Below are positions 2,243 through 54,877 of a stretch of DNA of 64,000 bases, in pieces. The position numbers and the translations under genes were made by a program. The stretch comes from Anoxybacter fermentans (lineage in GTDB: Bacteria > Bacillota > Halanaerobiia > DY22613). Positions within the stretch are counted from its first letter, which is position 1. The number at the start of each line of letters is the position of its first letter. Below the pieces are notes generated by a model. The model searched no databases. It was given only the letters and a program-made list of their open reading frames with translations, and was not told where the DNA came from. The stretch lies in the NCBI RefSeq assembly GCF_003991135.1, contig NZ_CP016379.1, positions 2,542,001-2,606,000 of the forward strand, written 5' to 3'.

Positions 2243-2796
2243 CTTTTCCTGAGAAAACGATATCTTAAATTTAGGAAGAAACCATCTTCAAAAGATTCTT
2301 CTACATCCCTGAAAAAGGTAGGTTTTTTTAATTTCTAAAACTTTTTAAAAGGTTTTTAATCAATGTTCCTCCAAAAGTTTCAGTGATGCTTCACCTTCCT
2401 CAGCTTTACACCACCATCACCGGAGGTATAATTGTTCTAATAATTCTAAAACTGTTAGAAACCCCCTTGAAAACAAAGTTTTTTAAATAAACCTAAACCC
2501 TTATTTATAATTCAAAAACGGCATATTAAAAAACTGCCTTTTATTTTTTTGGAAACTTTTCGTTTTTGGTATAATAAAAATGGAGCAAATGACAACATAA
2601 AGCTTTTATACATTATCGTAAAACACATAAAATGGGTTTCTGAATTATGTAAGATCCTTATTTAATAAAAACTTACTGCGTAATATTATGTAAGCTTTTT
2701 CTTGCCAGTAAAAATGCTACAAAAACAAATAATATATAAGCCATACCTTTTATTATCAAATAATCACCTCTAATTCCCAATAAAAAAATCTACTTA
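2243..2796. other. AT-rich gap after transposase relic
   Basis: Apart from a possible 28-codon minus-strand frame (2673-2759), I see no gene, RNA gene or clear transposase remnant here. The stretch is low-complexity AT-rich DNA, consistent with decay after deletion of the rest of the insertion sequence. Confidence 0.5.
2673..2759 (-). CDS. Possible 28-residue membrane peptide
   Basis: A TTG start at 2759 is preceded by AGAGGTGAT at good spacing. It opens a 28-codon frame whose centre, AYILFVFVAFLLA, is a plausible single membrane span followed by a basic RKS. There is no homology I recognise, and in AT-rich DNA such a frame can arise by chance. Confidence 0.22.
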   Translation of the reverse strand: MIIKGMAYILFVFVAFLLARKSLHNITQ

Positions 2797-2949
2797 CAGT
2801 CGAAATAAGGTCTCATCTGAGGATTGATGAGCTAATCAAAGGCCAGGAGGACCCTTTGAGTCAGGAAGCCTTATTTCGGCGAAAATCGAGCTTTAGATGA
2901 TTCGAAAAATTTCTCAAAAAGCGAAAAATTAGCTTTTTGCAGTTTAATT
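2797..2949 (+). repeat. Family A repeat, copy A1 (left arm deleted)
   Basis: It contains the GC-rich two-hairpin core and the whole right arm ending ATTAGCTTTTTGCAGTTTAA, but most of the left arm is gone. It overlaps the 3' end of wecB: the wecB stop codon (2944-2946) lies in the terminal AATTAAACTGC of the element when read on the minus strand. Confidence 0.85.
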
Positions 2950-4078: not shown

Positions 4079-4284
4079 TATTAAACTGCAAAAAGCTAAT
4101 TTTGAGCGACATAGAATTTTTTCGCTAAACCATCTTAGCAAGATTGAAGTCGAAATAAGGCCTCATCACAGTATCTGATAAACCAATCCATGGGTCGAAG
4201 ACCCATGGATTGCCCTGAAATCGAGCTTTAGATGATTCGAAAAATTTCTCAAAAAGCGAAAAATTAGCTTTTTGCAGTTTAATC
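4079..4284 (+). repeat. Family A repeat, copy A2
   Basis: About 206 bp with both terminal inverted arms (AAACTGCAAAAAGCTAATTT at left, its complement at right). The core differs from other copies: hairpin 2 is a perfect 13-bp stem (4184-4196 with 4200-4212, loop GAA), unlike the usual GGGCC/GGCCC stem. No convincing flanking direct repeat is visible. Confidence 0.9.
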
Positions 4285-7768: not shown

Positions 7769-7990
7769 TATTAAACTGCAAAATGCTAATTTTGAGCAAC
7801 ATAGAAATTTTTCACCAAATCATCTTAGCGAGATTTCCGACGAAATAAGGCCTCATCTGAGGATTGATGAGCTAGTTCTAAGGGCCAGGAGGGCCCTTTG
7901 ATTAGGAAGCCTTATTTCAGCGGAAATCGAGCTTTAGATGATTCGAAAAATTTCTCAAGAAGCGAAAAATTAGCTTTTTGCAGTTTAATC
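7769..7990 (+). repeat. Family A repeat, copy A3
   Basis: 222 bp and essentially complete. The left arm starts TATTAAACTGC and contains TTTTGAGCAACATAG. The core has CTCATC...GATGAG and GGGCCAGGAGGGCCC hairpins, and the right arm ends TTTTTGCAGTTTAATC. It separates the divergent lptD-like and protease genes. No clear flanking direct repeat. Confidence 0.93.
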
Positions 7991-20174: not shown

Positions 20175-20391
20175 GATTATAATGCAAAAAACTAATTTTG
20201 AGCGACATAGAAATTTTTCCAAATCATCTTAGCAAAATTTCCGACGAAATAAGGCCTCATCACAGGAAATGATGAGCTAGTTCTAAGGGCCAGGATGGCC
20301 CTTTGATTAGGAAGCCTTATTTCGGCGAAAATCGAGCTTTAGATGATTCGAAAAATTTCTCAAGAAGCGAAAAATTAGCTTTTTGCAGTAT
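20175..20391 (+). repeat. Family A repeat, copy A6
   Basis: About 217 bp. The left arm starts GATTATAATGCAAAAAACTA and carries TTTTGAGCGACATAG. The core is CATCACAGGAAATGATGAGC with GGGCCAGGATGGCCC, and the right arm ends TTAGCTTTTTGCAG. No flanking direct repeat is evident. Confidence 0.92.
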
Positions 20392-22373: not shown

Positions 22374-22987
22374 CTATATAAAATTAATTGTATCATTTTT
22401 TTCAGTATTGTTTAATAAAAACTTTTGGTTATCTAACAATAATAATTCTTCTTGCGAGGTTATAGTTAGAGTATTAAACATCCTTTTCATAAAAGGAATA
22501 TATTCTTGCTCTAACCATTTTTTTAATTATTATTAGTATTATTTGGAGTAATCTTTTCTAATAAACTATTAATAACAGTTAATACATCTCTATTAAAATT
22601 CATAAGCATCGTTATTCCTAAATATTTCATTATATCTTTACTACCCATATTTATAATATTATCTGTATTTTCACGAAACTTTTTAATTGTATGATTAAAC
22701 TGCAAAAAGCTAATTTTGAGCGACATAGAAATTTTTCGTTAAACCATCTTAGTGAGATTTCAGTCGAAATAAGGCCTCATCACAGGATGTGATGAGCTAA
22801 TCATGGGCCAGGAGGGCCCATTGATTAGTGTGCCTTATTTCGACTGAAATCGAACTTTAGATGGTTCGAAAAATTTCTCTTGAAGCGAAAAATTAGCTTT
22901 TTGCAGTAAAATCATTGTATCATTTTCTTCTTTAAATTTAAAAGTTTTTCTTCTAAGATCTTCCAACACATTTTCATCCACAAACAT
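22374..22987 (-). pseudogene. Small gene disrupted by repeat A7 and a frameshift
   Basis: Unrecognised. ATG 22987 follows AAGGAG and begins MFVDENVLEDLRRKTFKFKE. At codon 24 repeat A7 (221 bp) is inserted. Beyond it the same frame resumes with TIKKFRENTDNIINMGSKD and ends at TAA 22523, so removing A7 plus one direct repeat gives a 78-codon frame. Just past that stop, in another frame, lies WLEQEYIPFMKRMFNTLTIT, which looks like the natural continuation to 22374, separated by an AAT-rich slip-prone tract. The ancestral protein was perhaps about 130 residues, charged and helical. Both lesions should inactivate it; the alternative is two tiny separate genes. Confidence 0.65.
22693..22913 (+). 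repeat. Family A repeat, copy A7, with target duplication
   Basis: 221 bp. It is flanked by the direct repeat ATTGTAT at 22686-22692 and 22914-22920. The arms of about 83 bases match closely (CAGTCGAAATAAGGC at the inner end of the left arm, GCCTTATTTCGACTG at the right). The core has CTCATCAC/GTGATGAG and CTAATCA-TGGGCC/GGCCCA-TGATTAG hairpins. It interrupts a small gene, which makes it the best evidence in this window that the family moves. Confidence 0.95.
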
Positions 22988-28409: not shown

Positions 28410-28603
28410 CTTGTTGACAAACCTTTCTTTTTTAGAGACTTGCCTGTGCAATGCCAGAAAAACTAAATATAATTTCTGAAACATATAAGTCAAGGCTTAA
28501 AGCCAGGAGGGCGGAAGCCTTGAATTTTAAGGACGCGCAGCCAGAATGGCAGAGCGTCCGGTAACGGAAGAAATTATATTTAGTTTTTTTTCAACAGCCT
28601 GGA
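28410..28603 (+). repeat. Family B repeat, copy B1
   Basis: About 194 bp. It opens CTTGTTGACAAACCTTTCTT, then AACTAAATATAATTTCT (inner left arm) around a GC-rich core with AGCCAGGAGGGCGGAAGCCT and GACGCGCAGCCAGAATGGC, then AGAAATTATATTTAGTT (inner right arm), ending TTTTCAACAGCCTGGA. It matches copy B2 in inverted orientation, minus a stretch near its right end. Confidence 0.88.
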
Positions 28604-33163: not shown

Positions 33164-33385
33164 TATTTTACTGCACAAAGCTAATTTTTCGCTTTATGAA
33201 GAAATTTTTCGAACCATTTAATGTTCGATCTCAGTCTAAATAAGGCACACTAATCAACGAGCCCTCCTGGCCCTTGATTAGCTCATCACTTCCTGTGGTG
33301 AGGTCTTATTTCGACTAAAATCTCACTAAGATGGTTTAACGAAAAATTTCCATGTCACTCAAAATCAGCTTTTTACAGTTTGATC
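33164..33385 (-). repeat. Family A repeat, copy A8, inverted
   Basis: 222 bp in the opposite orientation to A7. The left arm is the TTTTTCGCTTTATGAAG form and the right arm carries CATGTCACTCAAAATC. The core reads GGGCTCGTTGATTAG/CTAATCAAGGGCC when reversed. The terminal left CTGCACAAAGC and right GCTTTTTACAG have diverged. Confidence 0.92.
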
Positions 33386-36733: not shown

Positions 36734-36961
36734 TCCAGGCTGTTGAAAAAGGGGAGGTGCACATAACTTGCTCCTACAGAAGAACAACTAAATATAATTT
36801 CTTCTGCTATCGGACGCTCCGCCGTCCTGGCTGCGCATCCTTAAAAGCCAAGGCTTTCGCCCTCCTGGCTTTAAGCCTCGACTTATATGCTTCAGAAATT
36901 ATATTTAGTTTTTCTGGCAGTACAGGGGCAAGTCTCTAAAAAAGAAAGGTTTATTAACAAG
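36734..36961 (-). repeat. Family B repeat, copy B2, inverted
   Basis: About 228 bp, the reverse complement of B1 with about 35 extra bases near TTCTTCTGTAGGAGCAAG. It keeps the arms AACTAAATATAATTTCT and AGAAATTATATTTAGTT and both GC-rich hairpins. It sits between yueI and the TauE-type permease. Confidence 0.88.
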
Positions 36962-37825: not shown

Positions 37826-37983
37826 AATTAAACTGTAAAAAGATAATTTTGAGTTGTTAGTGAGATTGAAGGGAATGGCCTCATCACAGGATGTGATGAG
37901 GCCTTATTTCTCCCTCAATTTCACTAAAAGGGTTTAACGAAAAATTTCAATAGCGCTCAAAATTAGCTTTGTGCAGTTTAATC
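37826..37983. repeat. Family A repeat, internally deleted copy A9
   Basis: 158 bp: ends AATTAAACTGTAAAAAGATA and TTAGCTTTGTGCAGTTTAAT enclose hairpin 1 only (CCTCATCACAGGATGTGATG), with hairpin 2 missing. It starts 12 bases after the permease stop. Both arms carry the TTTTGAG form, so orientation is unclear. Confidence 0.8.
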
Positions 37984-39531: not shown

Positions 39532-39738
39532 GATTACACTACAAAGAGCTAATTTTGAGCGACATAGAAATTTTTCGTCAAACCATCTTAGTAAGATTGA
39601 AGAAGAAATAAAGCCTCATCACAAGATGTGATGAGCAAATTAAAGATCAGGAAGATCCATTGATTATTGTGTCTGATTTCGTCAGATGATTCAAAAAATT
39701 TCTTTTTAAATGAAAAATTAGCTTTTTATGATAAAATC
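39532..39738 (+). repeat. Family A repeat, diverged copy A11
   Basis: About 207 bp. Left arm GATTACACTACAAAGAGCTA with TTTTGAGCGACATAG, core CATCACAAGATGTGATGAGC, right arm shortened to TTAGCTTTTTATGATAAAAT. The final ATC overlaps the TGA stop of the MFS gene (39737-39739). A weak direct repeat, ATATAT/ATACAT, flanks it. Confidence 0.8.
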
Positions 39739-45582: not shown

Positions 45583-45803
45583 AGTTAAACTGCAAAAAGC
45601 TAATTTTTCGCTTCTTGAGAAATTTTTCAAATCATCTAAAGCTCGATTTCCAACGAAATAAGGCTTCCTAATCAAAGGGCCCTTCTGGCCCTTGATTAGC
45701 TCATCACCTCCTGTGATGAGGCCTTATTTCGTCGGAAATCTCGCTAAGATGATTTGGCGAAAAATTTCTATGTCGCTCAAAATTAGCTTTTTGCAGTATA
45801 ATT
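45583..45803 (-). repeat. Family A repeat, copy A12, with target duplication
   Basis: 221 bp, inverted relative to A7. It is flanked by the direct repeat ATCTTTAT at 45575-45582 and 45804-45811. Left arm AGTTAAACTGCAAAAAGCTA with TTTTTCGCTTCTTGAG; right arm TATGTCGCTCAAAATTAGC and GCAGTATAATT. Core GGGCCCTTCTGGCCC with CATCACCTCCTGTGATG. Same length as A7. Confidence 0.95.
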
Positions 45804-54654: not shown

Positions 54655-54877
54655 GATTATACTGCAAAAAGCTAATTTTGAGCGACATAGAAATTTTTCG
54701 CCAAATCATCTTAGCGAGATTTCCGACGAAATAAGGCCCCATCACAGAAGGTGATGAGCTAGTTCTAAGGGTCAGGAGGGCCCTTTGATTAGGAAGCCTT
54801 ATTTCGGCGAAAATCGAGCTTTAGATGATTCGAAAAATTTCTCAAGAAGCGAAAAATTAGCTTTTTGCAATTTAACC
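54655..54877 (+). repeat. Family A repeat, copy A13, with target duplication
   Basis: 223 bp, flanked by AATACT at 54649-54654 and 54878-54883. Left arm GATTATACTGCAAAAAGCTA with TTTTGAGCGACATAG; core CATCACAGAAGGTGATGAGC and GGGTCAGGAGGGCCC; right arm ending TTAGCTTTTTGCAATTTAAC. It is close in sequence to A3 and A6. Confidence 0.94.

Follow-up and report, generated by a model that had tools for sequence, protein, structure and literature searches.

A7, a member of a target-duplicating hairpin repeat family with a conserved two-hairpin AGGA-loop core in Anoxybacter fermentans

A short reading frame in the genome of Anoxybacter fermentans is split by a palindromic repeat, which raises the questions of how the repeat arrived at this position and whether a gene was interrupted by it. 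The repeat, designated A7, was found in the window, i.e. the whole stretch of 64,000 nucleotides analysed here. Read directly from the sequence, A7 is 221 bp in length and runs from GATTAAACTGCAAAAAGC to GCTTTTTGCAGTAAAATC at positions 22693-22913 of the plus strand; its boundaries are supported by the family-wide register of target-site duplications (TSDs) and by the hairpin fold. Exact copies of ATTGTAT are present at 22686-22692 and 22914-22920, in agreement with the same register, so that the flanking repeats recorded in the preliminary description could be read directly on both sides as a duplication of 7 bp. The terminal inverted repeats, located by end-pattern matches, lie at 22693-22723 (plus strand, GATTAAACTGCAAAAAGCTAATTTT...) and 22883-22913 (minus strand, where it reads GATTTTACTGCAAAAAGCTAATTTTTCGC). 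As DNA, A7 folds into one long hairpin with an energy of -84.7 kcal/mol, compared with -21.2 in shuffles (z -19.8). The apex of this hairpin (22762-22845, plus strand; 108.1 bits with the covariance model R1) consists of a three-way junction and two AGGA-loop hairpins, CACAGGATGTG and GGCCAGGAGGGCC. The strand of each family copy was defined as the one on which the apex loops read AGGA.

Profile search identified other copies of the A7 family in the window, at 7770-7990, 20175-20390 and 54655-54875 (plus strand) and at 33165-33385 and 45585-45802 (minus strand). TSDs were detected by the TSD test for two of these, namely AATACT for the copy at 54655-54875 and ATCTTTAT for that at 45585-45802. 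Further copies have an altered apex (4080-4284, plus strand), are diverged (39532-39727, plus strand) or truncated (2794-2948, plus strand), or are partial (37879-37983, minus strand). A second inverted pair of 183-nt repeats with 89% complementarity, which was missed by the A-family profile, is located at 28410-28592 and 36779-36961.

The genome to which the window belongs (G000) is a single contig of 3,557,532 bp. Searching it with the end pattern CTGCAAAAAGCTAATTTTTCGCT yielded 402 forward and 393 reverse matches (control, 0), from which the family was estimated to comprise approximately 400 copies. Members carry the inverted ends GATTNNACTGCAAAAAGC at both termini, are about 220 bp long (typically 120-221 bp) and have no coding capacity. 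For an unbiased view, the window and 20 evenly spaced 20-kb stretches (464 kb) were subjected to the profile search, and 94 elements were identified, 70 of which have both ends. ORFs of 100 aa or more occupy 81% of the sample, yet none of the 94 is located within one.

Exact flanking duplications of 6-8 bp were found at 26 of the 70 two-ended copies in this sample, compared with a mean of 1.3 and a maximum of 7 duplications of at least 6 bp in 2000 shuffles; the absence of an exact duplication of at least 6 bp at the other 44 copies, which speaks against insertion at these sites, may be due to decay or other events. When 58 copies chosen by similarity were placed in the register GATTNN...NNAATC, an exact 6-bp match was found for 14 and an exact 7-bp match for 10 (together 24/58), the means for shuffled flanks being 0.8 and 0.3 (0.29 expected for 7 bp), respectively. 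The same register occurs with related ends in other genera (ATAATAT in G003, ATATAAT and AAAATAT in G026, and ATAACT in G017). The AT-rich duplications of 6-8 bp across the family point to cut-and-insert transposition with a stagger of 6-7 bp, whereas local duplication predicts none. The earlier proposal that A7 arrived by a transposition-like insertion is thus well supported, mainly by the family-wide TSD statistics and far less by the A7 site alone. Its corollary, that local duplication or recombination was not involved, also holds, because neither process accounts for the duplication of target sequence seen at 26 of 70 unrelated sites. The repeat is palindromic, intergenic and present in high copy number, as might be expected of a REP/RAYT-type sequence or a product of local recombination; such an origin, in place of DDE-type transposition, is nevertheless very improbable, given the target duplications and fixed inverted ends of the family, the length of A7 (221 bp, not 20-40 bp) and the presence at unrelated sites in G000 of copies up to 99% identical to it.

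Two unusual arrangements of family sequences were also observed. A 60-bp mini-element consists of only the two ends, with ATTTAA on either side (L006, near position 1116). Approximately 14 copies in a single orientation are found in an array in L164 (G000 positions 1940000-1959999), L165 (1960000-1979999) and L004; many of them have flanks in common and are spaced at about 2 kb. The units of this array code for an RHS-type C-terminal end and, after it, variable small genes. Duplication of these units, and not a series of independent insertions, seems to have multiplied the copies.

Under cut-and-insert transposition, a DDE transposase acting in trans would recognise the ends GATTNNACTGCAAAAAGC and excise the element, which would then be inserted at AT-rich intergenic sites through staggered cuts of 6-7 bp. 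Among the members of PF01609 (DDE_Tnp_1), searched genome-wide in G000, no transposase with A7-family ends was found, and the sampled stretches hold no long element with such ends. Related ends in six other genomes gave clean matches only in the form of pairs separated by approximately 200-260 bp or at the ends of contigs, all others being at control level. An IS1182-type IS present in 20 copies was considered as an autonomous partner and rejected because its ends differ (GGGGCTGTCCCAAAAGT); copies of this IS lie at or near the hairpin centre of MITE variants (L144 near 1296-2400 and L134 near 2390-2430). IS1380-like copies, with the ends CCTGAATCCGTGAT, were likewise rejected, as their only link to the family is a MITE copy situated close to one of their ends. 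Two contigs of G017 (L190 and L196) end in the same stretch of about 50 bp, finishing in GATTGTAACACAAAAAGC on the other strand, which resembles a MITE-like repeat end; these shared contig ends could form the border of a longer element that has termini of this kind. No match to the element was found in the phages, plasmids and viral contigs searched.

At 22686-22692, A7 appears to have landed in a short reading frame on the minus strand, cutting it after codon 24. Direct reading places the 5' part of this frame (MFVDENVLEDLRRKTFKFKEENDT) at 22914-22987, with an ATG at 22987 and AAGGAG upstream, and the 3' part, which begins with IKKFRENTDNIINMGSKD and ends in NNN and a stop, at 22523-22692. 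As previously described, excision of A7 together with one repeat joins MFVDENVLEDLRRKTFKFKEENDT to IKKFRENTDNIINMGSKD in a frame of 78 codons that starts with the ATG following AAGGAG (84 codons if started at an upstream TTG). The preliminary description took this frame to be a small gene. Its continuity is borne out, whereas its status as a gene is not, since the search for orthologues was empty and junction-spanning frames of at least 78 codons arose in 2.9% of trials with random flank pairs. The rebuilt frame has no paralogue in G000, no convincing match among 40 relatives, no match in 50,697 phage records or 72,556 plasmid records, and nothing above the cut-off in Pfam or PHROGs. The single match among 84,980 species genomes, to part of a 318-aa protein encoded by a Patescibacteria MAG, was dismissed as due to chance, the protein being unrelated. 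Because A7 was chosen from several copies, restoration of the frame alone counts for less.

There is an even chance that no gene was interrupted, the target of A7 having been an AT-rich non-coding stretch with a fortuitous 78-codon frame. The lack of any orthologue, paralogue or protein family, the frequency with which random flanks yield a frame as long, and the location of every sampled copy outside long ORFs are all in line with this reading. So is a 51-codon stretch (KKWLEQEYIPFMKRMFNTLTITSQEELLLLDNQKFLLNNTEKNDTINFI) on the minus strand at about 22374-22526, which follows immediately on the 78-codon frame and its stop, lies in another frame and has a second NDTI/ATACAATT at its end; it is possibly the frameshifted remainder of a longer gene, and its position in another frame suggests that the region may be a decayed gene. 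The suitable spacing of AAGGAG from the ATG argues against a chance frame, however, as does the length of the frame: among the other sampled copies with a TSD, the longest frame restored has only 38 codons. The region may therefore represent a lineage-specific gene, a gene that was already decaying or a chance frame.

An empty-site orthologue of A7, suggested earlier as a check, was not found. An empty site was identified in another genus for a relative of the element, in the gap between two genes that we take, from our own reading of their translations, to be kdgA and kdgK. This gap measures 13-21 bp in G014, G024, G032 and G048 and 83 bp in G020, and is filled by a hairpin element in G008, G030, G035, G038, G045, G046 and G047; one arm of the element is retained in G037. 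At this orthologous locus (L101, L103, L115, L226 and L227), the relative is thus retained by seven genomes, all belonging to a single genus. Two types of apex are found among the filled sites, with paired changes at 13 of 30 pairs (0-3 in slid controls), which reflect compensatory evolution or, alternatively, the replacement of one copy by another. Parts of the element seem as conserved as the adjoining coding sequence, suggesting that this copy may have been put to use.

For the analysis of apex conservation, 13 sequences were aligned, drawn from four genomes that represent four families. Both sides were altered at 17 of the 33 apex pairs, compared with 3-7 in slid controls, indicating compensatory change, and the CAGGA of the second apex loop is invariant. 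Of 59 genomes of the class, 16 are matched by the covariance model R1 of the apex, and these represent seven families. Across the class, the apex persists while the stems and terminal repeats differ by lineage: in the distant families f2, f9, f10 and f11, the stems and termini are largely unrecognisable and the loops and junction are kept. All 30 apices inspected, from 16 genomes, have at least one AGGA-type loop; in 13 of the 30, the other loop reads ACGA and GGA is found in one loop only, whereas paired GGA-loop hairpins are present in A7 and G000. Within G000, the apex loops are as variable as the rest of the element, and in the 464-kb sample 36 copies have the same orientation as the neighbouring gene and 31 the opposite (p 0.63), so that there is no sign that the resident copies serve their sites. 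Constraint can be seen only when lineages are compared, which would be expected if the target of selection is the line of elements that gives rise to new copies. The apex may thus have been retained as helping the element lineage to persist, not for the gene beside each copy.

Seven copies without an apex are scattered on the tree of elements (seven changes for seven rows; 6.8 when shuffled), and because of this scatter nothing shows that apex-less forms spread. They are best read as in-place deletions; their use as proof of apex-free transposition was rejected, as they do not cluster on the tree and deletion between TCGAA repeats could produce them. Repeated in-place deletion between short repeats would also fit a palindrome that is kept only as DNA, as a cruciform or single-strand hairpin aiding transposition or replication, with covariation arising from arm-to-arm copying. 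The folding of the whole element into one long hairpin and the strand-neutral placement of copies agree with such a role as well, but copying between arms would give covariation in stems, not constant loop and junction letters across lineages with wholly different stems, and we regard this alternative as possible though not probable. We hold it very probable that A7 belongs to a non-autonomous DNA transposon (MITE) of a Halanaerobiia-type bacterium, an element that would be moved in trans by a DDE transposase and whose apex would have been kept for the persistence of the element lineage. A protein would most plausibly recognise this apex, either as an RNA or as a single-strand structure, and CsrA appears to be the best candidate.

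Comparison with Rfam bears on this candidate. One copy in G000, bounded by A7-family ends, scores 51.7 bits for TwoAYGGAY (RF01731; Rfam cut-off, 43), another scores 27.7 bits, below the cut-off, and a relative in G035 scores 30.4 bits; A7 itself has no credible Rfam match. Membership of the A7 family in RF01731 holds through one member only, and the motif AYGGAY was not found in the two terminal loops, which read AGGAN or ACGAN in the A7 family. Relatives in G003, G046 and G008 resemble Bacillaceae-1 (RF01690) on the opposite strand, and G015 also has matches; the best RF01690 score in the class is 31.3 bits, under the 35-bit cut-off, and no match was found in G000. Gardner and colleagues put forward TwoAYGGAY and Bacillaceae-1, the latter in reverse complement, as RNAs that bind CsrA, and remarked that the discoverers had been unsure of the strand (PMC4333381).

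The apex might be a working CsrA/Rsm-type site, in which transcribed copies would offer two AGGA hairpins to one CsrA dimer; the hundreds of copies would then act as decoys, or CsrA would be used by the element in regulating itself or its host. The repeat of CsrB, CAGGA(U/A/C)G, is located in loops, and the SELEX consensus is RUACARGGAUGU (PMC7652899). In A7, each of the two loops matches the CsrB repeat fully or with one letter changed, and all of the SELEX ACARGGAUGU except its R is present in hairpin 1 (CACAGGATGTG) (PMC7652899). The occurrence of an AGGA-type loop in every apex inspected and the earlier proposals for the two Rfam families favour such a site. A csrA gene is present in G000, in 34 of 41 genomes and in every carrier tested (G002, G003, G005, G008, G017, G026, G030, G035 and G038), but also in most non-carriers. 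Further points against it are the ACGA sequence of the second loop in 13 of 30 apices and of both loops in the kdgA-kdgK element of G030, the loop AGGAN in place of an ANGGAN hexaloop, and the preference in SELEX against long stable stems (PMC7652899). Since the copies show no orientation bias and the loops in G000 are conserved no better than the rest, CsrA binding is put forward as a hypothesis, and a functional site of this type is regarded as possible though not probable.

The family resembles prokaryotic MITEs (PMC10969869) in being short, non-coding, intergenic and present in many copies, with inverted ends, TSDs and a long hairpin, and differs from them by a conserved two-hairpin AGGA-loop core that outlasts the terminal repeats. 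TwoAYGGAY (Weinberg 2010, PMC2864571) shares an outer stem and two GGA-loop hairpins with the A7 family, where they form the core of a repeat that is flanked by TSDs and present in hundreds of copies; the loops of the family are AGGAN, not AYGGAY, and most copies score below the cut-off. Bacillaceae-1 was described by its authors as a Bacillaceae RNA gene located on the CCU strand, whereas the relatives in this class match the opposite strand, all below the cut-off. CsrB/RsmZ-type RNAs have CAGGA(N)G in hairpin loops, in pairs, in common with the A7 apex, but the A7 family consists of strand-neutral mobile copies known from DNA, in which one loop often lacks GGA. The Rickettsia palindromic elements and QMITE1 of Coxiella are palindromic mobile repeats of similar size (PMC10969869), a likeness by description; QMITEs give rise to small RNAs (PMC10969869). 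No in-frame fusion is seen here; A7 breaks the frame. The A7 family is best filed as a MITE carrying a CsrA-site-like core, and deserves attention for this conserved core more than for the insertion site of A7.

TwoAYGGAY and Bacillaceae-1 have stood for more than 10 years as candidate CsrA-binding RNAs of Firmicutes with no assigned role and, for one of them, no assigned strand. If their architecture is also that of the core of a repeat that duplicates its target, favours neither strand and occurs in hundreds of copies, the ambiguity of strand would be explained. An inner fold that is conserved longer than the ends is the reverse of what is expected for MITEs derived by internal deletion of an IS. 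It is conceivable, though rather unlikely on present evidence, that the two RNA families are, at least in part, cores of selfish transposable elements that spread CsrA decoy sites through genomes, their conserved payload being paired hairpins bound by this global regulator of the host, with lineage-specific transposases. Reading the architecture as a MITE core would turn a vague small-RNA hypothesis into a testable one, through transcription, CsrA binding and the interaction between copy number and csrA.
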